From NCBI GenBank assembly GCA_012839205.1, contig DUNT01000019.1:1-64000 (forward strand): DNA of 64,000 bases, in the 5' to 3' direction. How positions within the stretch are numbered: the stretch's first letter is position 1; each line of letters begins with the position of its first letter. Source of the DNA: Clostridiaceae bacterium. GTDB taxonomy: Bacteria > Bacillota > Clostridia > DSM-8532. Under the pieces are notes generated by a model. The model searched no databases. It was not told the DNA's origin and saw only the letters and a list, made by a program, of their open reading frames with translations. The translations under genes and the position numbers were made by a program. Positions 22,081-63,900 of the stretch are shown here, in pieces.

Positions 22081-22427
22081 TATTATATCTCCTCTTTAAC
22101 TAATCAGGATGTTATTAACAGTCAAAATTTTCTTTTTACGTTAATACTATTTTATGATAATACTTCTTCATTATCAAGGACACATGTTTTCCTTGTATTC
22201 TTATGATATTCGATAATTAAATATTTATTAGTATATGATATTGCTCCCGGAAAGCCATTTCATGGCTTTTTCATGCTTATTGACTTTGTCTTCTTGCGTG
22301 AAGTTGCAGCATTACGCTGCAGCCGGGTGTAATCATAGTATTGTAAAATATAGTATTTAAAAGTAGAATAATATTAAAAATTAATGGGAATTTGAGATTT
22401 TTTCCAACAACCCTGGGGGGGGTTTGT
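22081..22427. other. 347-bp divergent intergenic region glgP / transglutaminase-like gene
   Basis: AT-rich, holding the promoters for both directions. At 22251-22269 AAAGCCAT-TTC-ATGGCTTT is a perfect 8-bp hairpin followed by a T run on the plus strand, about 160 nt ahead of the next plus gene, so it looks like an attenuator or small-RNA terminator. GCAGCATTACGCTGC at ~22306-22320 is another short inverted repeat. No known riboswitch consensus was recognised. Confidence 0.4.
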
Positions 22428-24068
22428 ATGAAAGACAATAGAAAGAGGTACATAGTCTGTATTATTGCAGGAGCTATTTTACTGTTAATAACAGTGACTG
22501 CGGCTATGCCTAAAAAAAGTATTAATAAGATTGTTTCCATGGAAGCAGGCCGAGAATTTCCCGATGCCAGCATTTTTTTCAGGAAATATGTTGATGATGC
22601 TGAGTATGTCACAGATACACACAGTATTAATCTGAATGAACCGGGGATACATGATGTGGAGGTAAAGTCCGGAAAGAAAACATATCGTGTAAAACTGGAA
22701 ATCAAAGATACTATTGCACCAGTTGCCGAAGTCGGGATTGTAGACATCTATGAGCGCCGAACCGTTGAACCTCACGAATTTATAAAAAGTATTAAGGATG
22801 CCACAGACGTCAGCGTAACATATAAGACTGAGCCTGACTTTAACAGGACAGGCAGTCAGGAAGTATTCCTGATTCTTGAGGATACTTCGGGCAACAAATC
22901 TGAATACCAGTCAATACTGAGAATATCCAAGGTAAAGAGAATTGCTGAAGTGGATATATCTGTAGGCAAGTTAGATGCCAGTATATTTTTAAAAAATAAA
23001 AGAGATATCAACGAGGCGGAAATTGTAGATACTTTATTTCCTGATACAGTAGGATTGTTCCCTGTAAAGATAAAAATTGGAGATACTATATATGAATCAT
23101 CGGTTAACATGGTAGACAGAATTGCACCTGTGGGCAAAGCTATAGACAGAGAATTCTGGACTGTTGATGAAATTTCGGCTATGGATTTTGTTGAAGCGAT
23201 TACTGATGCAACAGCTGTGACGGCGAGGTTTGCCAAAGAACCCGATTTTACACAGGTGGGGGATCAAAAGGTTAGCATCATACTGAGAGACCAGGGGGGA
23301 AACGAAACCATATTGGAAGCAGTTCTTACCCTGGAGGCCGATACCGAACCTCCGAAAATATATGGAGTGCAGGATACCACAGTTTATCTTAATACTCCGA
23401 TTGCTTATAAAAAAGGAGTTTATGTGACAGATAACAGGGATAAAGAAATTGAGGTCTCTGTGGACAGCAGCAGGGTTAATATAAAGAAAGAAGGCTCATA
23501 TATAGTTATATACAGTGCTACAGATGCTTCCGGTAACAGTACCCGCAGGGAAGTTACTTTTAATGTAATAGAAAAACCTGCTGACACTATCGATCGTGCG
23601 GTGGTTGAAGAGCTTGCCGAGGAAATCTTATCAAAGATTATTACTGAAGATATGACTTTGAAAGAAAAAGCACTGGCAATTTATAAATATGTCAATAAGA
23701 ATGTATATTATTTAGGCGGAAGGCATAGTGACGACCTGATTACCGAAGCGTACTACGCATTAATGAAAGATCCGGGAGATTGCTACACTTATTTTGCCGC
23801 ATCTGATTTATTGCTTAATATGGTTGGGATTCCCAATATCCGAGTCGAAAGACTCAGGTATGAGGGAGAGACCAACCACTACTGGCATATGATTAATTGC
23901 GGTGATGGCTGGTACCATTTTGATGCCTGTATACATTTACCTGAATTCTTTTCTTTCATGTTAACTGATGCCGAGGCTGAGGCTTATTCCAGACAAAAAG
24001 GGAAAAATGCATATTACTATAGGCATGATAAAACAAAATACCCTGCAACCCCCGATGATATACAATAA
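22428..24068 (+). CDS. membrane-anchored transglutaminase-like protein, paralogue 1
   Basis: Predicted extracytoplasmic protein of 546 aa. An N-terminal transmembrane/signal anchor (YIVCIIAGAILLLITVTAA) is followed by three or four Ig-like modules of ~75-90 residues (recurring DT..P and SGNKSEYQ/SGNSTRREV endings, DUF5011-like) up to residue ~385. A C-terminal transglutaminase core has the Cys in GDCYTYF (~451), His in NHYWHM (~483) and Asp in HFDAC (~500). The ATG at 22428 has a GGGGGG run upstream. The catalytic triad is intact, so crosslinking or peptidase activity is possible. The next gene is a close paralogue. Function in wall or surface-polymer handling is inferred. Confidence 0.8.
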   Translation: MKDNRKRYIVCIIAGAILLLITVTAAMPKKSINKIVSMEAGREFPDASIFFRKYVDDAEYVTDTHSINLNEPGIHDVEVKSGKKTYRVKLEIKDTIAPVAEVGIVDIYERRTVEPHEFIKSIKDATDVSVTYKTEPDFNRTGSQEVFLILEDTSGNKSEYQSILRISKVKRIAEVDISVGKLDASIFLKNKRDINEAEIVDTLFPDTVGLFPVKIKIGDTIYESSVNMVDRIAPVGKAIDREFWTVDEISAMDFVEAITDATAVTARFAKEPDFTQVGDQKVSIILRDQGGNETILEAVLTLEADTEPPKIYGVQDTTVYLNTPIAYKKGVYVTDNRDKEIEVSVDSSRVNIKKEGSYIVIYSATDASGNSTRREVTFNVIEKPADTIDRAVVEELAEEILSKIITEDMTLKEKALAIYKYVNKNVYYLGGRHSDDLITEAYYALMKDPGDCYTYFAASDLLLNMVGIPNIRVERLRYEGETNHYWHMINCGDGWYHFDACIHLPEFFSFMLTDAEAEAYSRQKGKNAYYYRHDKTKYPATPDDIQ

Positions 24069-24199
24069 GGAAATTATTCCAGATTGTGCAGGTACTTTGT
24101 TTTGCATTATATTTGTGTTAAAATGTAATACGATTTATTAGCTAAAAGTACCTTTATCAGACTAAACATGTTGCTGCATATATATGGAGGATGACTCAC

Positions 24200-25867
24200 A
24201 TGCGTTTGCGAAAGAACAAAAAAATTTACAGGTTTTATATAATTGTCTGCGTGCTGATTACTCTGCTTTTATTACTTTTAGCCAATGCTTTCAAGTACAG
24301 TGATGTTAATAAAAAAGTTGTTATAGAAGCAGGGTCAGAACTACCACAGGCAAATGTATTTATAAAAGACCAAACCAGGCAAGCCGAATATATTTCAGAT
24401 ATAACAAAAATAGAGGCAAATAAACCTGGAACCTATGATGTAAGAATAGAATCCAACGGGAAAAAGTATAAGGTTAAACTGGAGATTAGGGATACTTTAG
24501 CTCCTGAAGCTGAAATTAAGAATATCGACTTATACGAAGGCCGTATTATTGAGCCGCAGGAATTCATAAAGGGCATAAATGATGCTACCAATGTTGCTGT
24601 GACTTATAAAAATACTCCTGACTTTTATAAAACAGGAATTCAGGATGTGTTTTTGTTGCTTGAAGACGAAGCAGGAAATAAATCTGAATACCAGGCCAGT
24701 TTAAGGGTTTCCAAAACAAAAGAAAATATTAGGGTGGATATTGGTAACCGTCAGTATAAAGTTGAGGATTTTTTGAAGGAAAAGAACGATCTTGAGAGAG
24801 CAAGCATTATAGAACCCTTAAGTGTTCCGGAAAAGATGGGTACCTATCCTGCAAAAATTAAAATTGATGATGTTATATATGACTCAAATATTGTAGTTAC
24901 AGACTTGACTCCTCCGAAAGGAGAAGCTGTTGAACAGCAAATATGGCAAAACGATGTGATTGAAGCCTCACAATTGGTTACCAATATTAAGGATTTAACG
25001 AGTGTAACAGTCAGATTCAAGGAACAGCCGGACTTTTCACTTGTAGGTGAGCAAACGGTCAAACTGATATTGGAAGATGAGGCAAACAATCAAACCGAAT
25101 TGGAGGCAAAGCTGACTGTAATACAGGATACTGAGCCACCGGAAATTTACGGTGTTAAAGACAATACCATATATTTAAATACCCCTGTTTCATTCAAAAA
25201 AGGTGTATATGTATATGATAACAGGGATGGAGAAATCCAGGTTCAGGTTGACAGCTCCAATGTTAATCAAAAGAAGACAGGAGAATACAAGGTAATATAT
25301 ACTGCAACTGATTCATCAGGCAATACTTCCAGTAAGGAAGCCATATACACTGTAAAGGAAATGAGAGTAACAATGGAACAGCTTGAGGAACTTGCCGATG
25401 AGATATTAGCCAGAATAACTACCCCGGATATGACCTTAAGAGAAAAAGCCTGGGAAATCTATCAGTATGTGAATAAGCATCTTACTTATACAGGATATTC
25501 TGATAAAACTGATTGGATGTTTGAGGCTTATAACGGAATAACGAATGCTGTGGGAGACTGCTTTACCTACTTTGCCATGTCAGAACTTTTGCTTAACAGG
25601 ATTGGTATGGAGACTATGAGGGTAGAAAGACTTTCAAAGCCGGGAGAGGCAAAACATTACTGGCATTTGGTGGATTTCGGTGAGGGCTGGTATCACTTTG
25701 ATGCATGTATACACATACCCAAGCTGGTTTCCTTTATGTTGACCGATGCGGAGATGGATGCTTTCTCAGCAAGGGTAGGGAAAGACAACTATTACTATAG
25801 ATTTGATAAGTCCAATTATCCAAGGACTCCGGAGAAATACAACTATCCAAGGCCTCTGCCGGAATAA
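24200..25867 (+). CDS. membrane-anchored transglutaminase-like protein, paralogue 2
   Basis: Tandem paralogue of the preceding gene (555 aa): same order of signal anchor (residues ~10-32), repeated Ig-like modules and C-terminal transglutaminase core with GDCFTYF, KHYWHL and HFDAC. The two share long identical blocks around the core (for example YHFDACIH and SFMLTDAE) but differ in most Ig positions, so the duplication is not recent. The ATG at 24200 is chosen because GGAGG at 24186-24190 abuts the other ATG at 24191. It has its own promoter-like boxes (TTGCAT / TGTAAT) in the 131-bp gap. Placed just before the racemase/Dlt-like cluster. Confidence 0.8.
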   Translation: MRLRKNKKIYRFYIIVCVLITLLLLLLANAFKYSDVNKKVVIEAGSELPQANVFIKDQTRQAEYISDITKIEANKPGTYDVRIESNGKKYKVKLEIRDTLAPEAEIKNIDLYEGRIIEPQEFIKGINDATNVAVTYKNTPDFYKTGIQDVFLLLEDEAGNKSEYQASLRVSKTKENIRVDIGNRQYKVEDFLKEKNDLERASIIEPLSVPEKMGTYPAKIKIDDVIYDSNIVVTDLTPPKGEAVEQQIWQNDVIEASQLVTNIKDLTSVTVRFKEQPDFSLVGEQTVKLILEDEANNQTELEAKLTVIQDTEPPEIYGVKDNTIYLNTPVSFKKGVYVYDNRDGEIQVQVDSSNVNQKKTGEYKVIYTATDSSGNTSSKEAIYTVKEMRVTMEQLEELADEILARITTPDMTLREKAWEIYQYVNKHLTYTGYSDKTDWMFEAYNGITNAVGDCFTYFAMSELLLNRIGMETMRVERLSKPGEAKHYWHLVDFGEGWYHFDACIHIPKLVSFMLTDAEMDAFSARVGKDNYYYRFDKSNYPRTPEKYNYPRPLPE

Positions 25868-25875
25868 TAGACTTA

Positions 25876-25940
25876 AATGTATCATTCTGAAGCAAATAGT
25901 CGGCAATGTTATTCCGGGTGAAGCGTAGAATCTTTAGTTG
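25876..25940. repeat. degenerate fragment of the dispersed intergenic repeat
   Basis: ATCATTCTGAAGC...TTATTCCGGGTGAAGCGTAGAATCTTTAG keeps the CATTCTGA and GAATCTT landmarks of the repeat family with many changes. It lies between the transglutaminase-like gene and the racemase gene and may have arrived before the region settled. Confidence 0.5.
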
Positions 25941-25961
25941 GCTCAGTAAGGGGGAATACTT

Positions 25962-26678
25962 ACGAAAGAATTAGGTGTAATTGGCGGTCTTGGCCCTATG
26001 GCCACTGCTTATTTTCTGGAATTGGTAGTTAAAATGACGGAAGCAAAGAACGATAGGGAACATGTGCCGATGATTATTTTTAATCATCCTGCCATTCCGG
26101 ACCGTACAGACTATATTCTGGGGAAAAGCCAGGAAAGCCCGCTGGATGCTATAGTTTCCATAGGAAAGACCTTAGTTGAGCTTGGCGTTGAGAATATTTC
26201 AATACCCTGTATAACCGCCCATTATTTTTATGATGATATATTAGCCCAAATTGGCATTCCGGTTATAAATATGCTGGAGGAAACCGCTAACTATCTTAAA
26301 GCTAATAATATTGATGAAGTTGGTATTATGGCAACAGATGGAACCATTAAAGCAGGATTCTTCACCGACGAGCTTGAAAAACATGGGTTAAAGGTTTATA
26401 CTCCCGGCGAAAATAGCCAGAAGAAAGTCATGAGCATTATTTATGATGATATAAAAGCTAATAAGCCATATGACATTGATGGGTTTAAACAAGTTGAGCG
26501 TGAATTGAGGGAAGCAGGGGCACAGGTTATAATACTGGGGTGTACTGAGCTTTCGTTAATTAAGAAGGATGGACATGCAGGTTTCGGGTTTTTAGATACA
26601 ATGGAGGTGCTAGCCGTTAAATCAATTGAATTGTCAGGGGCCTCTTTAAAAGCAGAATATAAAAATTTGCTTGTATAG
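25962..26678 (+). CDS. aspartate/glutamate racemase family protein, apparent ACG start
   Basis: Cofactor-independent amino acid racemase of ~239 aa with both catalytic cysteines: C83 in IPCITAH and C194 in ILGCTELS. The family's N-terminal strand and loop, KELGVIGGLGPMAT, is encoded upstream of the first ATG (25998). The only in-frame codons between the stop at 25947-25949 and this motif are GGG GGA ATA CTT ACG. AAGGGGG at 25948-25954 is 7 nt from ACG, so ACG (25962) is the likely start; a mutated ATG or a base-call error is the alternative. It probably supplies a D-amino acid (Asp or Glu by family) to the adenylation enzyme encoded 29 nt downstream. Confidence 0.8.
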   Translation, partial: TKELGVIGGLGPMATAYFLELVVKMTEAKNDREHVPMIIFNHPAIPDRTDYILGKSQESPLDAIVSIGKTLVELGVENISIPCITAHYFYDDILAQIGIPVINMLEETANYLKANNIDEVGIMATDGTIKAGFFTDELEKHGLKVYTPGENSQKKVMSIIYDDIKANKPYDIDGFKQVERELREAGAQVIILGCTELSLIKKDGHAGFGFLDTMEVLAVKSIELSGASLKAEYKNLLV

Positions 26679-26707
26679 CTTGAACTTGCATAGAAGGGTG
26701 TTAGTTG

Positions 26708-28225
26708 ATGGATAGACAGAACAATATTCTTGAATACTTAGATAATATAGTAAATATCTGTCCCGATAAAATTGCATATGCAAATGAAACTGATGAATTA
26801 TCATTTAAGACAGTCTATGATAATTCCAGGGCGATAGGGACTTTTTTGCATAATGAAGGCAGATACAAAGAGCCTGTGGTGGTTTTTATGCGGAAACACC
26901 CGGACACTATTGTTACTTTTCTTGGTGTTGTATATGGGGGCTGTTACTATGTACCCATAGACAACGAGATGCCGAGACACCGTATAGAACTGATATTTCA
27001 GAATCTAAATCCCAAAGCGGTTATATGTGATGATTCAACTATAGATTCAATTAAAGACTTTGATTATAAAGGAGCAGTGTACCACTATAACGAAATAGTA
27101 AAGACAACTGTTAATCAGGCTGCATTGGACGAAATCAGGGATAAAGCTCTTGACACTGACCCTATTTACATTGTATTTACATCAGGCTCTACAGGCAAGC
27201 CCAAAGGTGTAGTTGCATGCCACCGGTCAGTAATAGATTATATAGAAACTCTGTCTGAAGTCTTAGAAATATCTGAGGATACGGTATTCGGTAATCAGAC
27301 CCCGTTATATGTTGACGCCTGCTTAAAAGAAATATACCCGACATTAAAATTCGGTGCAAAGACTTATATAATACCAAAGGAACTTTTTATGTTCCCCATT
27401 AAGCTGGTAGAATTCCTTAATAAATATAAGATCAATACGGTTTGCTGGGTGGTACCGGCCTTGACCCTTATTTCAGGCTTAGGTGCGCTGGAAAAGGTAG
27501 TTCCTCAGCACCTGCATACAATAGCGTTTGGAAGTGAAGTGTTCCCCATAAAGCAGTTTAATATGTGGAGAAAGGCCCTGCCCAACGCCAGATTTATTAA
27601 TCTGTACGGGCCAACCGAAGCCACCGGAATGTCATGCTATTATATCGTTGACAGGGAATTTGCACTTGATGAAGCAATCCCTATAGGAAAGCCGTTTAAA
27701 AACACAGAGATTTTACTTTTGACCGATGAGAATAAACTTGCCCCAAAAGGTGAGCAGGGGGAGATTTGCATAAGAGGAACCTCTCTTACCCTGGGCTATT
27801 ACAACGATTTTGATAGAACAAATGAGGTATTTGTGCAGAACCCGTTAAATACTATGTACCCTGAACTTATCTACAGGACGGGAGATATAGGAAAGCTCAA
27901 TGAAAGGGGCGAGCTGGTATTTGTATCCAGAAAAGATTACCAGATTAAGCATATGGGGCATCGTATAGAACTGGGCGAAATTGAAATGGTTATGAATCAA
28001 ATGGATGGCATCCAAAGTGTGGTATGTATTTTTGATAATGACAAAAAGAAGATTATTATGTATTATGTTGGTGATGTAACAAAAGCAGATGCTGTAAATT
28101 ATTGCAGGGACAAGCTGCCCAGATACATGGTTCCAAATCTTGTTGAGAAGCTTGATATTATGCCGCTTACATCAAACGGAAAGATAAACAGACTGGCATT
28201 AAAAGAAAAGTATGCCAATCGATAG
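26708..28225 (+). CDS. amino acid adenylation enzyme, DltA-like
   Basis: Stand-alone adenylation enzyme of 505 aa that should activate an amino acid with ATP and load it on the carrier protein encoded 8 nt downstream. Core motifs: VFTSGSTGKPKGV (~155), NLYGPTEATG, YRTGDIGKL, QIKHMGHRIELGEIE and the catalytic Lys in SNGKINRLALKEKY. The Asp in LYVDACLKEIYP is the residue that usually binds the substrate amino group, so an amino acid substrate is likely. By eye, the Cys that DltA uses for D-Ala selection is not conserved (CWVVPALTLISGL), so D-Ala cannot be assumed. ATG 26708 is preferred to the overlapping TTG at 26705. Confidence 0.85.
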   Translation: MDRQNNILEYLDNIVNICPDKIAYANETDELSFKTVYDNSRAIGTFLHNEGRYKEPVVVFMRKHPDTIVTFLGVVYGGCYYVPIDNEMPRHRIELIFQNLNPKAVICDDSTIDSIKDFDYKGAVYHYNEIVKTTVNQAALDEIRDKALDTDPIYIVFTSGSTGKPKGVVACHRSVIDYIETLSEVLEISEDTVFGNQTPLYVDACLKEIYPTLKFGAKTYIIPKELFMFPIKLVEFLNKYKINTVCWVVPALTLISGLGALEKVVPQHLHTIAFGSEVFPIKQFNMWRKALPNARFINLYGPTEATGMSCYYIVDREFALDEAIPIGKPFKNTEILLLTDENKLAPKGEQGEICIRGTSLTLGYYNDFDRTNEVFVQNPLNTMYPELIYRTGDIGKLNERGELVFVSRKDYQIKHMGHRIELGEIEMVMNQMDGIQSVVCIFDNDKKKIIMYYVGDVTKADAVNYCRDKLPRYMVPNLVEKLDIMPLTSNGKINRLALKEKYANR

Positions 28226-28233
28226 GAGGAAAT

Positions 28234-28464
28234 ATGAAAGCATTACTGGAAATACTGGAGGAATTACACCCGGAAATTGATTTTGAAACTCATAAAAGTT
28301 TAATTGATGATAAAATACTGGACTCCTTCGATATCATTACAATTATTGCGGAAGTTAATGATGAATATGATGTGGCTATTCCGGCTCATGAAATTACGCC
28401 GGAGAATTTTAACTCTGCATCAGCACTTTACGAACTGATAGAAAGGCTGATGGACGAGGATTAA
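28234..28464 (+). CDS. acyl/aminoacyl carrier protein, DltC-like
   Basis: Acidic 76-aa carrier protein. The phosphopantetheine attachment serine is S31 in ILDSFDIITII, followed by the typical VAIPAHEITPENFNS loop and third helix. It has AGGAGG 5-6 nt upstream and sits between the adenylation and MBOAT genes, so it is the partner that carries the activated amino acid. Size matches DltC (~78 aa). No dedicated phosphopantetheinyl transferase is in the window. Confidence 0.88.
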   Translation: MKALLEILEELHPEIDFETHKSLIDDKILDSFDIITIIAEVNDEYDVAIPAHEITPENFNSASALYELIERLMDED

Positions 28465-28476
28465 TCAGGGGGAGCT

Positions 28477-30066
28477 ATGTTATTTACTTCATATGGGTTT
28501 ATACTATTTCTGTGTGTAGTAATTGGACTATACTATATAATACCTAAGCGATTCCAATGGCAGCTTCTGCTGATATCGAGTTTCGTTTTTTACTATTTTT
28601 CAGGCTGGAGTAATTTAATCTATATTTTAGTTACTATTGTATCCACCTATTTTATAGGGATGAAACTTGGCAACCTTAATAAGCAGCAGAATTTGTACCT
28701 GAAAGAAAATAAAGAGACTTTATCCAGAGAGGAAAAAAAGGCATATAAAGAGAGAATAAAAGCTAAGCGCTGGAGATGGCTTTTGTTCTGCCTTTTTTTC
28801 AACTTGGGAATTTTAGCGGTAATCAAGTACACAAATTTTGCCATAGCTAATATTAACAATATATTCACATTATTTAAGATGAATGAACTTTCCTTTGTGA
28901 ATCTTATCCAGCCAATGGGTATATCGTTTTATACATTCAAGACTATGGGATATATCATTGATGTTTACAGAGTTAAGTATGAGCCGGAGAGGAATATAGG
29001 TAAACTGGCTCTGTTTGTTTCATTCTTCCCTCAGTTAATACAGGGTCCTATAAGCCGTTTTGACGATTTAAGCCTGTCACTTTTTAAGGAGCATGATTTT
29101 AATGCTAAAAGTTTTTCATTCGGATTTCAGAGAGTGCTCTGGGGATATTTTAAAAAGCTTGTTATAGCCGACAGAATAGTTGTGGCTGTGCTGGAGATTA
29201 CAAGGAATCCCGAAACCTATGACGGAATATTCGTTCTGGTGGGTATGGTCTTTTATGCTATACAGCTTTATGCTGACTTTACCGGAGGTATTGATATTAC
29301 CATCGGTATTGCTCAGATGCTGGGAATTGAGGTTAAAGAAAACTTTAACCGGCCGTATTTCTCCAAGTCCATCGTGGAATATTGGAGAAGATGGCATATT
29401 ACTATGGGAACATGGTTCAGGGATTACATATTCTATCCCCTGTCTGTCTGTAAACCCATGCTGAATATATCAAAATCCTCCAGAAAACGCTTTGGAGAAC
29501 AAATAGGAAAGAAAGTACCTGTATATCTGTCAACAATGACAGTATGGTTTACAACGGGTTTATGGCACGGCGCCAGCTGGAATTTTGTTGTCTGGGGTTT
29601 GCTAAACGGATTTGTGATTTTAGTTTCCCAGGAATTTGAACCCTTGTACGCAAAATTTCATCAAAGGTTTAATGTAAGGGATACCTTTGGATTCAGGTTA
29701 TTTCAGGTTATACGAACTTTTCTTCTTATGTCCTCATTAAGAATTCTGGACTGCTACCGGGATGTAGGTATATCCTTCAGGATGTTTGGCTCAATGTTTA
29801 CCAAATTCAACATTAATGAGATGCTTACAGGCTCTTTGCTTAAATTGGGTCTGGATATTTCTGATTATATTGTACTTTTAATTGGAGTTATTGTGCTAAT
29901 ATCAATCAGTCTTATACAAAGGAGCGGAAGTGTCAGGGAAAAAATATCGGGCAAGCCGGCAATAATAAGGTATACCGTTTATGTATTGTTATTGTTCTCA
30001 ATAGTTATTTTTGGAGCTTATGGAATAGGCTTCGACAGCAATCAGTTTATCTATAATCAGTTTTAG
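28477..30066 (+). CDS. MBOAT family membrane O-acyltransferase (DltB/AlgI-like), system 1
   Basis: Polytopic membrane protein of 529 aa with ~10-12 hydrophobic helices. It has the MBOAT hallmarks: PMGISFYTFKTMGYIIDVYR, QLIQGPISRF, and the catalytic His near residue 364 in TTGLWHGASWNFVVWG, preceded by EYWRRWHITMGTWFRDYIFYPL. It is longer than DltB (~400 aa) and nearer in size to AlgI. In this operon it probably takes the aminoacyl group from the carrier protein and passes it across the membrane to a surface polymer. It starts 12 nt after the carrier protein gene (GGGGGAG site). Confidence 0.88.
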   Translation: MLFTSYGFILFLCVVIGLYYIIPKRFQWQLLLISSFVFYYFSGWSNLIYILVTIVSTYFIGMKLGNLNKQQNLYLKENKETLSREEKKAYKERIKAKRWRWLLFCLFFNLGILAVIKYTNFAIANINNIFTLFKMNELSFVNLIQPMGISFYTFKTMGYIIDVYRVKYEPERNIGKLALFVSFFPQLIQGPISRFDDLSLSLFKEHDFNAKSFSFGFQRVLWGYFKKLVIADRIVVAVLEITRNPETYDGIFVLVGMVFYAIQLYADFTGGIDITIGIAQMLGIEVKENFNRPYFSKSIVEYWRRWHITMGTWFRDYIFYPLSVCKPMLNISKSSRKRFGEQIGKKVPVYLSTMTVWFTTGLWHGASWNFVVWGLLNGFVILVSQEFEPLYAKFHQRFNVRDTFGFRLFQVIRTFLLMSSLRILDCYRDVGISFRMFGSMFTKFNINEMLTGSLLKLGLDISDYIVLLIGVIVLISISLIQRSGSVREKISGKPAIIRYTVYVLLLFSIVIFGAYGIGFDSNQFIYNQF

Positions 30067-30090
30067 CATTAAGGAGAATTAATAGAACCA

Positions 30091-31179
30091 ATGAGAAAGA
30101 AGAAGATAATATCCTTTGTAATTTTAATATTGGTGATTGTTACTCTGGCTTTGCTCCTCCAAAAGCTTCTGATGCCCAAATATATGACAAAGATAGTGGA
30201 AGGAGCCCTGATAGCCGAGTATTATGATGAAAAGAATAAAAACCATGATGTTATATTTATCGGAGACTGTGAGGTTTATGAGAATCTTTCTCCCATAACT
30301 CTTTGGGAGGAATATGGTATCACAAGCTATATCCGGGGCAGCGCTCAACAGCTGATTTGGCATTCCTATTATATATTGGAGGATACTCTAAAGTATGAAA
30401 AGCCGGATGTTGTTGTATTTAGTGTGCTTTCAATGATGTATGATACACCCCAGAAGGAAGCATATAACCGTATGTCTATTGACGGGTTACCTTTATCATT
30501 GACTAAAATGAAATTGGCCAAGGCATCTATGCTTCCCGAAGAGGATTTAATTACATATATTTTCCCTTTGCTCAGATTCCATTCAAGATGGAATGAGCTT
30601 TCTGAAGAGGATTTTAAGTACTGGTTCAAAAAAGACCAAATTGCCCATAACGGATATCTTATGAGAGTCGATGTCAAACCAGCAAGCTCTTTCCCCAAAC
30701 CAAGAAAACTTGCAGATTACAAATTCGGGGATATTTGCTATGAATATCTGGACAAGATTGTTAAGCTATGTAAAGATAACGATATAGAGCTGGTTCTGCT
30801 GAAGGCTCCCAGTCTTTACCCGCATTGGTATGAAGAATGGGATTCCCAGATAGTTGACTATGCTGAAAAGAATGGTTTATTATATATAAATATGCTTAAT
30901 CATTTAGATGAGATAGGCCTGGACTTTAATACCGATACTTATGATGCAGGGCTGCATTTGAATCTTTCAGGTGCTGAAAAATCATCAGTTTTTCTGGGGA
31001 GAATTCTTCAGACAGAGTTTAATCTTTCCGATAAGCGCCAGGATAAATATTTAAAGGCCGTTTGGAAGGAAAAAGCCGATGCATATTATGAAATGGAAGC
31101 GGATCAATACAGGGAACTTGAAGAATACGGTTATTTACTAAAATTCAACATGAAGAGGTCAGAAGAGAATAACCAGTAA
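30091..31179 (+). CDS. SGNH-like membrane-anchored protein, DltD/AlgJ-type, Cys at nucleophile position
   Basis: Predicted extracytoplasmic protein of 362 aa with one N-terminal transmembrane anchor (IISFVILILVIVTLALLL). The block DVIFIGDCEVYENLSP resembles the GDS/GSS nucleophile motif of SGNH acyltransferases, but the expected Ser is C60. Near residue 285, DAGLHLNLSGAEK matches the C-terminal D-x-x-H block. DltD, AlgJ and PatB-type proteins act with MBOAT partners on surface polymers, and this gene follows one by 24 nt. Whether Cys is the nucleophile or the activity is lost is unknown. It ends the five-gene run; a repeat block follows. Confidence 0.75.
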   Translation: MRKKKIISFVILILVIVTLALLLQKLLMPKYMTKIVEGALIAEYYDEKNKNHDVIFIGDCEVYENLSPITLWEEYGITSYIRGSAQQLIWHSYYILEDTLKYEKPDVVVFSVLSMMYDTPQKEAYNRMSIDGLPLSLTKMKLAKASMLPEEDLITYIFPLLRFHSRWNELSEEDFKYWFKKDQIAHNGYLMRVDVKPASSFPKPRKLADYKFGDICYEYLDKIVKLCKDNDIELVLLKAPSLYPHWYEEWDSQIVDYAEKNGLLYINMLNHLDEIGLDFNTDTYDAGLHLNLSGAEKSSVFLGRILQTEFNLSDKRQDKYLKAVWKEKADAYYEMEADQYRELEEYGYLLKFNMKRSEENNQ

Positions 31180-31189
31180 GATGACAAAT

Positions 31190-31385
31190 GAATGGGGAAG
31201 ATTTTTCGCTGACGCATTTGACATAACTCACGGTACTTGCCGCGAGTAAAGGATCTTCGTTAGCGTTCAGAATGGCAGAAGGATGTCATCCAGAGGGCAG
31301 CACATTACCCTAATTGTCATCCTGAGGATAGCACTTTACTCTTACTGTCATCCTGAGCGTAGCGAAGCGGAGTCGAAGGATCTTA
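31190..31385. repeat. dispersed intergenic repeat block (31.2 kb copy)
   Basis: Contains at least three units of the family: a degenerate AAGATTTTTCGCTGACGC..GGATCTTCGTTAGCGTTCAGAATGGCAG part, then GTCATCCAGAGGG, TTGTCATCCTGAGGATAGCAC and CTGTCATCCTGAGCGTAGCGAAGCGGAG..GGATCTTAC. It fills the gap between the Dlt-like run and a lipoprotein gene. No gene is seen in it. Confidence 0.75.
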
Positions 31386-31453
31386 CCCAAATTAACAATA
31401 AAACTTTCGTATATTCAGAGTGTTTAAAAAGCAGAAAAAAGGAGAAATATTAA

Positions 31454-32014
31454 ATGAAAATAAAGATATTCGTACTAATAATGGTAGTTATGATACTTTT
31501 TGCAGGTTGTGGTTCGGGTTCAGAAAATGTTAATCCATCACCATCACCTACCACATCTGCTGCAGCGAATCCCGACAACAATGAAACTAAGCCTGCAACA
31601 GAGGAGAAATCTAAATATTATTTTGAATATAACGGTACGGCTATTTACATGAATGATGTTGCAAAGCCTGTATTGGATGTTTGGGAAGAGCCTATGCACT
31701 ATTTTGAATCTCCCAGCTGCGCTTTTCAGGGAATTGACCGTGTATATACTTATAATGGCTTTGAATTATATACCTATACAGATGGAGATGATGAAACCGA
31801 ATATATATTTTCCGTGGTGTTCATGAACGACAGTGTTGAAACCAATGAGGGTATAACCATTGGTAGTAAACTGGAAGATGTAATTTCCAAGTATGGGGAT
31901 GATTTTACCCAGGAAGGAAAGAAATATACTTATACAGACTCCAACACCACTCTGTCCTTTGTACTTGAAAATGATGAAGTAGTTGAAGTATCATATAATC
32001 TCATCCTGAATTAA
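31454..32014 (+). CDS. putative lipoprotein, unknown function
   Basis: Lipoprotein of 186 aa. The signal peptide MKIKIFVLIMVVMILFAGC has a lipobox with Cys19, followed by a Pro/Ser/Thr/Asn-rich spacer (~20-50) and a compact alpha/beta domain (~55-186) with TYNGFELYTYTD and TIGSKLEDVISKYG. The latter resembles the 'small change in conformation' repeats of SmpA/BLIP-like lipoproteins, but I cannot name the family. AAAAAGGAG precedes the ATG. It is downstream of a repeat block, so probably not part of the Dlt-like operon. Confidence 0.7.
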   Translation: MKIKIFVLIMVVMILFAGCGSGSENVNPSPSPTTSAAANPDNNETKPATEEKSKYYFEYNGTAIYMNDVAKPVLDVWEEPMHYFESPSCAFQGIDRVYTYNGFELYTYTDGDDETEYIFSVVFMNDSVETNEGITIGSKLEDVISKYGDDFTQEGKKYTYTDSNTTLSFVLENDEVVEVSYNLILN

Positions 32015-50690: not shown

Positions 50691-50929
50691 CATTTTATAA
50701 TAAATTAAGATGTAATATATACAATATATTATGATATTAGGATAAGTATAAACTTTAAGTATGCAAGCTGAATCACAAATTAAGGTGACAAGTCTTTTTT
50801 TACCGAAACAAAGTGATATAATAAAAGTTAAAGAGAATGCAGCTGTAATACTAATTTATAGCTAGGGTTCATGGAGCGTTAAACTTAGTGTGGACCTTTC
50901 TTAATATGGAGACTCGAGGGGGCATTTTT

Positions 50930-52345
50930 TTGGTTTTTTCCAGCTTGTTTTTTTTATGCATTTTTCTTCCGATTTGTTTGGGCTTATATTATATCAATAA
51001 GAACAGGACCTATAGAAATTGGCTTCTTATAATAACATCTCTTATTTTCTATGCGTGGGGAGAGCCAGTTTGGATTTCAATTCTTTTATTGTCAACCGGG
51101 TTCAGCTACTTTAGTGCACTTCTTGCCGAAAAGTACAGAGGAAACGTTAAAGGGAAGATAGCTCTTATAGCTTCAATTGCTGGTAATCTTCTGATTCTTG
51201 GTTTTTTCAAATATTCCGGATTTCTGATTGACAATATAAATGGCTTGATAGGAACAAGCATTAAGGTGCCGGAGGTCGGTCTGCCCATAGGGATTTCTTT
51301 TTATACCTTCAAGATTATTTCTTATATAGTGGATGTATATAAAGGAGAAACAGAAGCACAAAAATCACCGTTTAAACTGCTTCTCTATGTTTCTTTGTTC
51401 CACCAGCTGATGGCAGGGCCTATTACGCGCTATAAGGATATTTCCGAAGCTATTGACAACAGGGTGGAAACATATCAGGATTTCAATTACGGTGTCAGCC
51501 GTTTCATAATAGGACTTGGCAAAAAGGTGATTCTTGCGGGTACAGCAGGTAAAATCACAGATATATTCATGGGTACCGATTATACAAGGCTTCCTTTGCT
51601 GGGTGCCTGGTTCGGTATACTGATGTTTGCTCTTCAATTATATTTTGATTTTTCAGGCTATTCAGATATGGCCTTAGGGCTTGGCAGCATGTTCGGGTTT
51701 AAGTATAAGGAGAATTTTGATTATCCTTATATTTCGAAATCAGCAGGTGAGTTCTGGCGAAGGTGGCATATTTCATTAGGCAGCTTTTTTAGAGATTATG
51801 TATATATACCACTGGGGGGAAACAGAAAGTTTAGAATAAGAAATCTGTTTATTGTCTGGGGACTCACGGGTTTGTGGCATGGTGCAGACTGGAATTTTAT
51901 CATTTGGGGTCTGTATTATTTTGTGCTTCTGGTGATAGAAAAAGCGTTTTTACTTAAGCTTTTTGAAAAACTTCCTGCAATAATATCAAGATTATATCTA
52001 TGGGTTGCGGTGCTTGTTGGATGGGTGTTCTTCTATCACAACGACATAGGACAGGCGTTCAGATTCTTAGGGATTATGTTTGGACCCGGTGCCAATGGAA
52101 TATCCAGCCCTGAACTGAGTATACATTTTTGGAATAATGCTGTGTTTCTGATTATTGCGCTTATAGGCTGCACACCTGTTTTCAGCAGGATCTTCAAGAG
52201 GCTAAAAGAAGAAGGATCCAAAGGAAAACTTATTTGGTTTATTGAAACATATGGTAAGCCGGCTTTCAATATAGCAGTACTGGTACTGTCGGTTATTTTC
52301 CTGGTGGGACAATCCTTCAGCCCATTTATGTATTTTAAGTTTTAG
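50930..52345 (+). CDS. MBOAT family membrane O-acyltransferase (AlgI-like), system 2
   Basis: 471-aa polytopic acyltransferase. From the TTG at 50930 (GAGGGGG 8 nt upstream) it begins VFSSLFFLCIFLPICLGLYY, the usual AlgI-type N-terminus; an upstream GTG at 50888 would add 14 unrelated residues. Hallmarks: LPIGISFYTFKIISYIVDVYKGE, HQLMAGPITRYKDI, EFWRRWHISLGSFFRDYVYIPLGGN and the catalytic His in LTGLWHGADWNFIIWG. It probably acylates (typically acetylates) an extracellular polysaccharide together with the DHHW protein encoded 78 nt downstream. Confidence 0.92.
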   Translation: MVFSSLFFLCIFLPICLGLYYINKNRTYRNWLLIITSLIFYAWGEPVWISILLLSTGFSYFSALLAEKYRGNVKGKIALIASIAGNLLILGFFKYSGFLIDNINGLIGTSIKVPEVGLPIGISFYTFKIISYIVDVYKGETEAQKSPFKLLLYVSLFHQLMAGPITRYKDISEAIDNRVETYQDFNYGVSRFIIGLGKKVILAGTAGKITDIFMGTDYTRLPLLGAWFGILMFALQLYFDFSGYSDMALGLGSMFGFKYKENFDYPYISKSAGEFWRRWHISLGSFFRDYVYIPLGGNRKFRIRNLFIVWGLTGLWHGADWNFIIWGLYYFVLLVIEKAFLLKLFEKLPAIISRLYLWVAVLVGWVFFYHNDIGQAFRFLGIMFGPGANGISSPELSIHFWNNAVFLIIALIGCTPVFSRIFKRLKEEGSKGKLIWFIETYGKPAFNIAVLVLSVIFLVGQSFSPFMYFKF

Positions 52346-52422
52346 ACTTTAAAAGAACATGAGTCGTTTATACAGGCAGCTGATTTTAGATACATTCATT
52401 CGGAATATAGGGAGGCATAGTT

Positions 52423-53790
52423 TTGAAGAAACTAAAAATTGATACGATATTTTTCATTATACTTATTACTTTGCTGGGCTTAGTAAATTTAATCAATACC
52501 AATAAGCCAACAGTATCTAATCTTGAGAACAGGGCCCTTAAAACCATGCCTCAGTTTTCGTTGGCCAGTGTAGTCAGAGGCAGCTTTCAGAGGGATTTTG
52601 AGGAATATTACAGCGACACCTTTATTTTCAGAGATAATCTGGTGAAAATAAGCAGGGATGTAAACAAGATTATGGCTTTCCTGGGGCCTGACATCAGTAT
52701 TGTTACATCAGTTGAGGATGTACAATTACCTCCGGTTATACCCGAGGGAGAAAAAGAAACTGTATTCCCGGCGCCGACAGGAAGCAAGGCTAATGAAACC
52801 AACGAAAACTTCTCTCCATCTAATGAGAATACCCAAACGGCAACTCCCACACCCACTCCCGAACCGGAAAAAGACTATGGAGATGACCCTAATGTAGGAT
52901 ATTGGATGGTTGTGGATGGTAAGGCTGTTCAGCTGTTTAAATTCAATAAGGAAAGTATTGAATACTATGCACAAGTCATAAATAAATACAATGAAAAGCT
53001 GGGGGATGGAGTAAAAATATATTCTATGATACCTCCGACAAACGGGGAGTTTATGCAGCTAAAGAAGTACAAGAGCATAACTGATTCTCAAAATGATGCA
53101 CTTGGGTTTTTAAAAACCAAGCTAAATGACAGTATTATATCTGTTGATGTCTATGATGCTTTGAACAAACACAAGGATGAATATATTTACTTCAGGACCG
53201 ATCATCACTGGACAGCGCTTGGTGCCTATTACGGGTATTGCGAATTTATGAGAACCAAAGGAGATACGCCTCTTTCTCTTGATCGATTTGAAAAAATTGA
53301 TTTGGGGGATTTCCTGGGCAGTTCCTACACCAAAACATTGGACAAGAGTCTTGAGAAAAACCCGGATAATATTGTTGCATATAAGCCGTTAACCAACCAC
53401 AAATTCACTATATATAAAGGCAATGAGGGGACTAAAGCCGATATAATCGACCTGAAATATGCTGACGATATCAGTAAAAAATATCTGGTATTCATTAGCT
53501 CAGGCGGGGCAACCTGGAGTAAAGTAAAGACAGATATTAATAACGGCAAAAAAGTCTTGGTTATAAAGGACTCTTTTGGTAACATGCTGGTACCTTTTTT
53601 AGTGCCCCACTATGAGGAGATTTATGTTGTTGACTCAAGATTTTACAATATGAACTTAACGGAAAAGAATATTGTGGAATTTGTAAAAGACAACGGAATC
53701 AATGAAGTGGTATTCTGTATATACATGGAGGATGTAAACTGGCACAAGTTTATGAGCGGTGTTGAGAACATGCTGGGCAGTGAGAATTAA
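52423..53790 (+). CDS. DHHW/AlgX-like extracytoplasmic protein
   Basis: 455-aa protein with an N-terminal membrane anchor (TIFFIILITLLGLVNLI), the ENRALKTMPQFS motif and FIFRDNLVKISR. A Pro/Thr/Glu-rich linker (~125-155, TPTPTPEPEK) precedes the SGNH-like domain, which has FRTDHHWTALGAYYGY (DHHW motif, ~263) and VIKDSFGNMLVPFL near 385 carrying the Ser-like nucleophile block. Such proteins act with AlgI-type MBOATs in O-acetylation of exopolymers. TTG start with GGAGG ~7 nt upstream. Confidence 0.88.
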   Translation: MKKLKIDTIFFIILITLLGLVNLINTNKPTVSNLENRALKTMPQFSLASVVRGSFQRDFEEYYSDTFIFRDNLVKISRDVNKIMAFLGPDISIVTSVEDVQLPPVIPEGEKETVFPAPTGSKANETNENFSPSNENTQTATPTPTPEPEKDYGDDPNVGYWMVVDGKAVQLFKFNKESIEYYAQVINKYNEKLGDGVKIYSMIPPTNGEFMQLKKYKSITDSQNDALGFLKTKLNDSIISVDVYDALNKHKDEYIYFRTDHHWTALGAYYGYCEFMRTKGDTPLSLDRFEKIDLGDFLGSSYTKTLDKSLEKNPDNIVAYKPLTNHKFTIYKGNEGTKADIIDLKYADDISKKYLVFISSGGATWSKVKTDINNGKKVLVIKDSFGNMLVPFLVPHYEEIYVVDSRFYNMNLTEKNIVEFVKDNGINEVVFCIYMEDVNWHKFMSGVENMLGSEN

Positions 53791-60905: not shown

Positions 60906-63900
60906 ATGTCTGATACTATCTATTATCCTTTAACTTCCCCTCAGTTATCAATTTGGTATACCGACCGAATGTATTCTGGAACAAGCATTTCAAACGTCGC
61001 AGGAACTTTAAGAATTAAAGAAAAAGTCGATATTGAAGTTTTAGATAAAGCAATCAATTACTATATCAAGAATAATGACGGTATACGTTTACGGATTTGT
61101 CTTGATGGTGAAGGTAATCCACAGCAATATGTATCAGAATATGTATACAAGAAAATTGAGGTTAAAGACTTTTCAAACTTTGCAGACCCTATAAGGGCTA
61201 TGCAAGAGTGGGACAGACAAGAAACTCTCAGGCCATTTGATTTATTAAACAGTGAATTATTCCGTTTTGTAATTATTAAACTTAATGATTTTGATATAGG
61301 GTTTTATATTATAACACACCATATTATATCTGACGCCTGGAACATGAGCCTTTTAGGCAGTTCTATAGTTGACTGTTATTGCAAAATTAAAAAAAATCCG
61401 GATGATACCAGTCTTAATGATACTATGCCATCATATACTTCGTTTATTGAAGACGAGCAGCTCTATATAAAGTCCAGCAGATATGAGAAGGATAAAAATT
61501 ATTGGGAGGAAACCTTTGGAGCGTACCCTGAGACAACATTTTTAAAGATTAGACAGACCAATGAGTTTTCTGCTAAAACAAAAAGGAAAACATTTATCGC
61601 ACCAAAAAAGTTTACAAATAAGCTCAGGGCTTATTGTCAGGAAAACAAAATAACTCCATACCCATTGTTTATTTCGGCTTTAGCAATGTATATTAACAGA
61701 ATATTGGATAAAGATGATATAATTATAGGGACACCTATTTTAAACAGACTTAACCGCACCTACAAAAATACTGCAGGGATGTTTGTCAGTACGATACCAT
61801 TACGGATTGGCATAAATAATCAGGATTCATTTTTGGATTTATCTCAAGACGTATTAGAAATATGCCTAAAATCATACAGGCATCAAAGATACCCTTACGA
61901 CCATATTCTAAAGCATGTCAGGGAAAAGCATAATATAAAAGAGAATCTATATGATATTGTTCTTTCCTATCAAAATTCAAAGTTTGACAAGTCTTTTGAT
62001 GTCGATTACATAACTAGATGGCATTTTAATGAATACCAGTCCAATTCATTCACGATGCATATTAACGACAGAGACGATGAGGGTGTCTTAATCATAGATT
62101 ATGATTATCATTCTGATTTATATTATGATAAAGAAATTGAATTCATACATCAGCATGTATTGAGTCTGTTATGGCATGCGTTGGATAATCCGAACAATTT
62201 AATCTGTAAAATTGAGATGCTCTCCGAAAATGAGAAAAAGAAAATACTACATGATTTTAATGATACCTATGCAGATTATCCAAGAGAAAAGACCATTCAT
62301 CAATTATTCGAAGAGCAGGTTGAAAAAACGCCTAATAATGTTGCTATTGTCTTTGAAGACAATAGACTTACTTATAAGGAGCTGAATCAAAAAGCAAATT
62401 CTTTAGCTAACGTGTTAAGAAACGAAGGAATAGGACCCGATGATGTTGTTGGAATTATGGCTCCAAGATCGCTTGAGCTGATTATTGGAATATTAGCGAT
62501 ATTAAAAGCGGGTGGTGCTTTTTTACCAATTGAACCTGGATTCCCTGATGAAAGAAAGAAGTATCTATTAAATAACAGCGGTGCAAAACTTTTGATTTCT
62601 ACAAAGGAATTATACTCTTTTGAATATGGGATCGGATTAATAGATATATATGACTGTAATAATTATAGGAAGGAATTATATGAGAATCTGCCACATGTAA
62701 ACATGTCAAGCGATATGGTTTATGTTTTATATACATCGGGTTCCTCAGGTTTACCTAAAGGTGTTATTATCGAACATAAGTCTTTACATAATTTTGTATC
62801 AGGTGTAAAGAAAGTATTGGATTTTAATCCATCATCAGTTGTTTTATCGGTTACTACAGTATGTTTCGATATTTTTGCTTTTGAACTATTTACATCATTA
62901 TTAAGTGGCTCGACTGTAATTATTTCCAATGAAAATGAACAGAACAATCCTAGGGTATTAGGCGAATTAATTCTTAATAATAATGTTTCGACCATACTAA
63001 CAACTCCTTCAAGAATGAAACTGTTTGTTAATGTTGAGGTATTTAAAAAGAGTTTATTAAAGGTAAAACAGATAATGCTAGGTGGTGAAGAGCTTGAATT
63101 AAGTTTTGTAAACAAGTTAAGAAAGCTTACAGATGCCAGAATTATTAATGGTTATGGTCCAACTGAAACAACAATTGGTGTAACCTTTAAAGATGTTACG
63201 AAATCAAACAAAGTAACGATTGGCAAGCCAATAAGTAATACAAAATGTTACATACTGGATAAATATTCGAATCTTGTACCAATAGGCATACAAGGAGAAT
63301 TATGTATTTCAGGAGAATGTTTAGCTAGAGGTTATTTAAATAATAATGAGTTAACAAATAGTGCTTTTGTTTTGAACCCATTTAATGAAAACGAAAGACT
63401 TTATAAGACCGGAGATATGGCTCGTTGGTTTCCAGAAGGTGAAATTGAGTTTTTAGGAAGAAAAGATAAACAAGTAAAACTACGGGGATATAGAATTGAG
63501 TTAGAAGAAATTGAAAATGCAATCTTAAAGTATAAAGGCATCAAAGATGTTGCAGTTGTTCTAAAAAAGAATAGTGATTATGGAGATTTATTGTGTGCAT
63601 ATTGTGTAAGTAACGATACCATTATAATAAAAGATTTGAAATCATTATTAGCTCGTCAATTACCTAGGTATATGGTTCCTAGAATTATAATGGAAGTTGA
63701 AAGCATACCAATTAATTCAAATGGTAAAAGAGATACATCAAGACTGCCGGATATTGATTATTCAAGTTTAGCCAGCGACAGTATTATAAAACCATCAACA
63801 AAAATGGAGAAAAAACTGCTAGATATGTTTCATAAGCTGGTTAAGGGCAGTAGAATTAGTATCGATGACAATATCTTTGAGTATGGTGCTGATTCATTAA

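Follow-up and report, generated by a model that had tools for sequence, protein, structure and literature searches.

A racemase gene within a conserved Dlt-like operon almost certainly begins at ACG, a codon kept by every full-length orthologue examined in the same family. We consider it rather probable that this weak start, set behind a strong Shine-Dalgarno sequence (SD), acts as a deliberate throttle, probably IF3-sensitive, that limits the racemase relative to its operon.

In the window, that is, the whole stretch of 64,000 nucleotides that was analysed, the start region reads TAA, GGG GGA ATA CTT, ACG, AAA GAA TTA GGT, and the frame opened by the ACG runs without interruption to a TAG at 26676-26678 (Table 1). 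The first-pass annotation had pointed out that no ATG, GTG, TTG or CTG stands in frame from the TAA to the ACG and the KELGVIGGLGP block, and the window sequence bears this out. The earliest canonical in-frame start is ATG 25998, which is codon 13 and lies just 3' of GGLGP, and the conserved block is indeed encoded before it. The spacing given for the SD was also right, since exactly 7 nt (AATACTT) separate AAGGGGG from the ACG.

Table 1. Position of the ACG start, its signals and the surrounding operon genes in the window
Feature	Position	Strand	Basis
Upstream gene, Ig-like and transglutaminase-like domains	24191..25867	+	Domain matches; same place in relatives
In-frame TAA, four codons before ACG	25947..25949	+	Same TAA in G003 and G007
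Shine-Dalgarno AAGGGGG	25948..25954	+	7 nt before ACG; duplex -10.2 kcal/mol
Putative ACG start codon of the racemase	25962..25964	+	ACG in 17/17 family orthologues and in G236 and G406 (another family)
Asp/Glu-type racemase, 238 codons	25962..26678	+	TIGR00035, PF01177, alignment with 1jfl, two invariant cysteines
DltA-like adenylation enzyme, ATG start	26708..28225	+	Domain match
Acyl/peptidyl carrier protein, ATG start	28234..28464	+	Domain match
DltB-like MBOAT, ATG start	28477..30066	+	Domain match
Protein in the DltD place	30091..31179	+	Position; no NCBIfam match

The order to which the window's genome belongs is represented by 33 genomes in our collection and its family by 32, of which 17 gave a racemase match. 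The match of G013 was omitted as a distant fragment (26%, residues 70-221), and the set of 17 genes used below consists of 16 family genomes from four genera plus L015, a MAG of unknown placement. Weak second matches in G018 (22%) and G026 (25%) were dropped from the counts; L013, L014 and L016, whose contigs equal those of G003, G007 and G010 in length, were not counted twice; the racemase of G007, split over two contigs with the start present on both, was counted once and left unjoined.

All 17 full-length orthologues carried ACG at the start position, behind GGGGG or GGAGG, which supported the earlier proposal that ACG is the start actually used. The codons leading up to it were variable, being CTT, CCT, TTT, ATT, AAT or ACT directly before the ACG, and ATA, ATT, GTT, GAA, AAA or ATG one position further upstream. 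Of the alignment columns, 47 were invariant for an amino acid that has four or six codons, and only that of the ACG was written with a single codon in 17/17 genes; the other 46 varied. The 17 genes are non-independent by kinship, but this applies equally to those 46 columns, which vary all the same. ACG accounted for 27 of the 193 other threonine codons in these genes (14%). This pattern argues for a start rather than a threonine codon, with the third-position G apparently held, as expected if this G pairs with C34 of the initiator anticodon. Both marks of a conserved non-canonical start are found here: the codon is kept as a codon and, in the window, no canonical start is able to serve.

The encoded protein scored 221.9 bits against TIGR00035 (cut-off 93.1) and 136.7 bits against PF01177 (31). 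It also passed the cut-off of the cysteate racemase model CuyB (NF052483; 203 vs 190 bits), a label that looks doubtful to us, as the Dlt-like operon does not suggest cysteate. The Pyrococcus aspartate racemase (1jfl, 2dx7) is of the same sequence family, and residue 2 of the solved 1jfl aligns to residue 2 of our racemase, so that the ACG falls where Met1 of the solved homologue sits; the gene studied here differs from it by its Dlt-like operon and its ACG start. Two cysteines, at alignment columns 83 and 194, which we take to be the catalytic pair, were invariant in 17/17. Comparison with three congeners gave dN values of 0.072, 0.087 and 0.095 for dS values of 0.75, 1.06 and 0.71, that is, a dN/dS of about 0.08-0.13. 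The low dN relative to dS and the two invariant cysteines indicate that the racemase is under purifying selection, hence that the gene is used.

In the family, the gene order is Ig/transglutaminase-like protein, racemase, DltA-like adenylation enzyme, carrier, DltB-like MBOAT, protein in the DltD place and lipoprotein, several family contigs ending early and the lipoprotein being unmatched in G018. The adenylation enzyme, the carrier, the MBOAT and a fourth protein follow one another in the same order as in the dlt operon for teichoic acid D-alanylation. The operon studied here differs from dlt by the addition of the racemase and the transglutaminase-like protein, and its scores were far below the equivalog cut-offs for DltA (273 vs 559.85 bits), DltB (141.6 vs 375 bits) and DltC (29.6 vs 68 bits); we thus refer to it as Dlt-like and not as dlt. 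A literature search brought up no paper on a racemase linked to a dlt operon that looked relevant from its listed entry. Of the 19 family genomes in the class sample, 11 had a match to the adenylation enzyme (E up to 1e-100), and these same 11 also had the racemase (E up to 1e-35). The next four genes after the racemase started with ATG in 17/17, 16/16, 15/15 and 14/14 rows, with the proviso that, for the DltD-place gene, a script moved some starts to an ATG close by when the alignment had begun at another point. Incidentally, the conserved operon, with its own racemase and transglutaminase-like protein, extends over 24191-32014. Two tandem paralogues of the Ig/transglutaminase protein, about 50% identical, occupy 22392-25867, and the same pair is present in several genomes of the genus. 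The same window also has a further DltB-like MBOAT, followed by another gene (50888-53790), and a second adenylation-domain protein (62283-63728).

We then compared SD strengths, using duplex energies computed against an assumed anti-SD word. The racemase SD averaged -11.2 kcal/mol over the 17 orthologues (range -12.2 to -10.2), with a scored spacing of 6 nt in 15 of them. Means for the next four operon genes were -6.1, -9.2, -8.0 and -6.3 kcal/mol, with scattered spacing, and 20 ATG-started relatives of the racemase averaged -6.6 kcal/mol. When the 19 ACG genes, that is, the 17 and those of G236 and G406 from another family (see below), were set against these 20 ATG genes, the Mann-Whitney p was 6e-6, uncorrected for kinship. 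Strong SDs (-9.8 to -11.5) were also found in the ATG-started L140, L141, L144, L146 and L152, and strength is thus not unique to the ACG genes. Single-sequence folds of the leaders revealed no shared structure by eye.

We also examined the tRNAs and infC. All 40 RF00005 matches of the window's own genome were scanned by ARAGORN, which yielded three CAU tRNAs. One of them has initiator features by reading, namely a GGG/CCC anticodon stem and a C1-A72 end, and this initiator looks ordinary from its sequence. None of the 40 matches had a CGU anticodon, the threonine tRNAs being GGU and UGU only. A dedicated initiator tRNA reading ACG was rejected on these two grounds. The infC gene was found in 29 of the 32 family genomes (L159-L187). 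The codon behind GGAGGTGTT was ATT in 18, ATA in 6 and ATC in 3 of them, and the codon behind the SD was also ATA in L159 and L162, where the alignment began later, which brings the total of ATT, ATA and ATC to 29/29; a few infC loci carry an ATG at that SD or ahead of it. In E. coli infC starts with ATT and in Streptomyces with ATC, and IF3 thereby controls its own synthesis (PMC5472188). Since infC has such starts here and IF3 self-control is known elsewhere, IF3 discrimination is probably live in this family.

Beyond the family, a class-level search gave 84 matches in 83 genomes, and starts were read for the 30 that came with loci, of which 19 lie outside the family. ATG stood at the ACG position or one to three codons away in 18 of these 19, and at exactly the ACG codon in seven (L140, L142, L144, L145, L146, L150 and L151). 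The first-pass annotation had expected ATG at this codon in orthologues: this was true of those seven loci, but not within the family, where all 17 had ACG. The one ACG among the 19 outside loci was that of G236, a member of another family, which reads TAA GGG GGG AAC ATC ACG. That family comprises 13 genomes, seven with a racemase match, and its starts were mixed: ACG also in G406, ATG at the same codon in G073 and G273, ATG one codon before it in G407 and one codon after it in G291 and G372. A pattern written for ACG-started members matched 11 of 391 class genomes, ten from the window's family plus G236; G011, which has GTT as codon 4, escaped it, so the pattern has false negatives.

The ACG state required three changes on a tree of 46 racemases. 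A single clade of all 19 ACG genes, a group named after the tree had been seen, was rejected (p-AU 2e-7). For the 17 family genes alone, a single clade was not rejected (p 0.107), because the ATG-started L142 of another family falls inside it with unstarred support; L158, which starts with ATG and then has ACA, was left out of the ACG group in these tests. So the ACG would have arisen by at least two gains, or by one old gain with losses. ATG occupies the same codon in more distant relatives, which makes an ancient change between ATG and ACG likely. The earlier suggestion that ATG had mutated to ACG does not hold as a fresh change in the window's genome, which the ACG of all 17 orthologues excludes.

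How might such a start work? The ordinary CAU initiator tRNA would decode ACG with a C-A mismatch at the second codon base. In E. coli, ACG serves poorly as a start, and IF3 would be expected to reject most initiation complexes formed on it, with the unusually strong SD at near-fixed spacing rescuing enough of them. The outcome would be a built-in low rate of racemase synthesis, independent of transcription, within an otherwise ATG-started Dlt-like operon. This rate would probably respond to IF3 activity, as it does for infC and for sigR of Streptomyces; we infer both the low output and this response by analogy with such systems. The benefit might be that small amounts of catalyst suffice, or that an excess would drain the L-amino-acid pool or overmake the D-amino acid. 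As to why the codon is frozen, its one-step neighbours are either ATG, with a stronger output, or codons expected to be weaker still, and the same argument would account for ACG being fixed while infC drifts among ATT, ATA and ATC. The conservation of so odd a codon suggests a built-in scarcity of the racemase rather than a mistake.

We considered whether the gene could be read in some other way. Initiation might take place elsewhere, at ATA 25956, at an upstream codon or at ATG 25998. ATA is a listed, rare start in NCBI table 11, but ATA 25956 begins 1 nt after the G run of the SD and is unconserved, relatives having ATT, GTT, GAA or AAA at that place. An open in-frame ATG, GTG or TTG does lie 2 to 42 codons upstream of the ACG in 10 of the 19 ACG genes, but none is conserved, and the other nine have none; in the window, G003 and G007, upstream starts are shut out by the TAA. 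Solely in G026 does the upstream codon sit between the SD and the ACG: in that locus (L066) an ATG stands two codons before the ACG, 2 nt behind GGAGG, and it might be a second start there. Starting at ATG 25998 would cost the protein its GGLGP, and no more than 7 of the 17 orthologues have ATG as codon 13, the others having CTG (5), TTA (3) or TTG (2), so that orthologues do not begin at this later ATG behind the conserved motif. We hold a start elsewhere to be highly improbable. The prospect of a base error, which had been raised earlier, or of a dead gene is practically nil: the rarity of ACG starts speaks for it, nothing more, and it is refuted by the same base in 17 assemblies and by a dN/dS of about 0.1. 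Editing of the mRNA from C to U, as in plant organelles, would restore AUG, and ACG is the one codon so converted; it is known for chloroplast rpl2, psbL and ndhD (PMC9845219). However, according to the same source, editing of such kind has not been observed in bacteria, nothing in this analysis points to an editor, and we regard this explanation as extremely improbable.

Other explanations accept the ACG but give it a different role. Ribosomes finishing the upstream Ig/transglutaminase gene could reinitiate at the ACG and so tie both genes. The upstream stop touches the SD in two genomes, lying 12 nt ahead of the ACG in G236 and 11 nt ahead of it in G406, and coupling may contribute there. 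It would not do so in general, since the gap is 94 nt in the window and ranges from 31 to 176 nt elsewhere in the family (leaving aside L059 and L066, whose values were unusable, and L054, with no upstream gene on its contig) and the SD is strong on its own; reinitiation as the driver is unlikely. A lineage whose machinery reads ACG efficiently, through an altered initiator tRNA, IF3 or 16S rRNA, would have no throttle at all. The fixation of ACG in 17/17 fits this idea, but the CAU initiator is ordinary-looking, infC still starts with ATT, ATA or ATC, and, of the eight sites in the window's own genome with GGAGG or GGGGG 5-8 nt before ACGAA, the seven besides the racemase open at most 39 codons. 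Such a machinery is very unlikely, and the idea that this genome uses ACG starts widely was rejected on sites of that form only. A last possibility is that the ACG is a specific switch, whereby translation of the racemase would be turned on, by a factor of its own or by conditional C-to-U editing, when a D-amino acid is needed to modify the envelope. All 17 family copies examined, and a second family, have ACG rather than some other weak start, and a switch would account for this; we judge it quite unlikely.

The throttle that we favour has partial precedents. In Streptomyces, the conserved GTC start of sigR was shown to hold its product below that of its partner, with IF3 repressing it (PMC5472188). 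In both cases a single gene within an operon keeps a non-canonical start, that of sigR being kept across a genus. They differ in that sigR has GTC and encodes a sigma factor, whereas the racemase has ACG and encodes an enzyme; the ACG also extends across four genera of one family and occurs in a second. The infC gene likewise has a conserved poor start under IF3 discrimination, also in the racemase's family, but infC drifts among three start codons and regulates itself, whereas the racemase is strictly ACG in 17/17 and is no initiation factor. Chloroplast genes also have a conserved ACG where the start codon belongs, and there AUG is restored by C-to-U editing (PMC9845219). A literature search by titles and abstract openings, with most subscription journals outside its scope, returned no recognisable native bacterial gene started by ACG.

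At a practical level, gene finders restricted to ATG, GTG and TTG would truncate the racemase at codon 13, as the program-made list of open reading frames does. Few conserved bacterial starts outside ATG, GTG and TTG have been characterised, those treated in PMC5472188 being infC and sigR. The racemase would add to them a conserved start at ACG, shared by four genera and found again in a second family. It lends itself to a natural, comparative test of the idea that a weak start and a strong SD have been selected together as a fixed throttle, and it is a candidate for a metabolic gene whose dose may depend on IF3.
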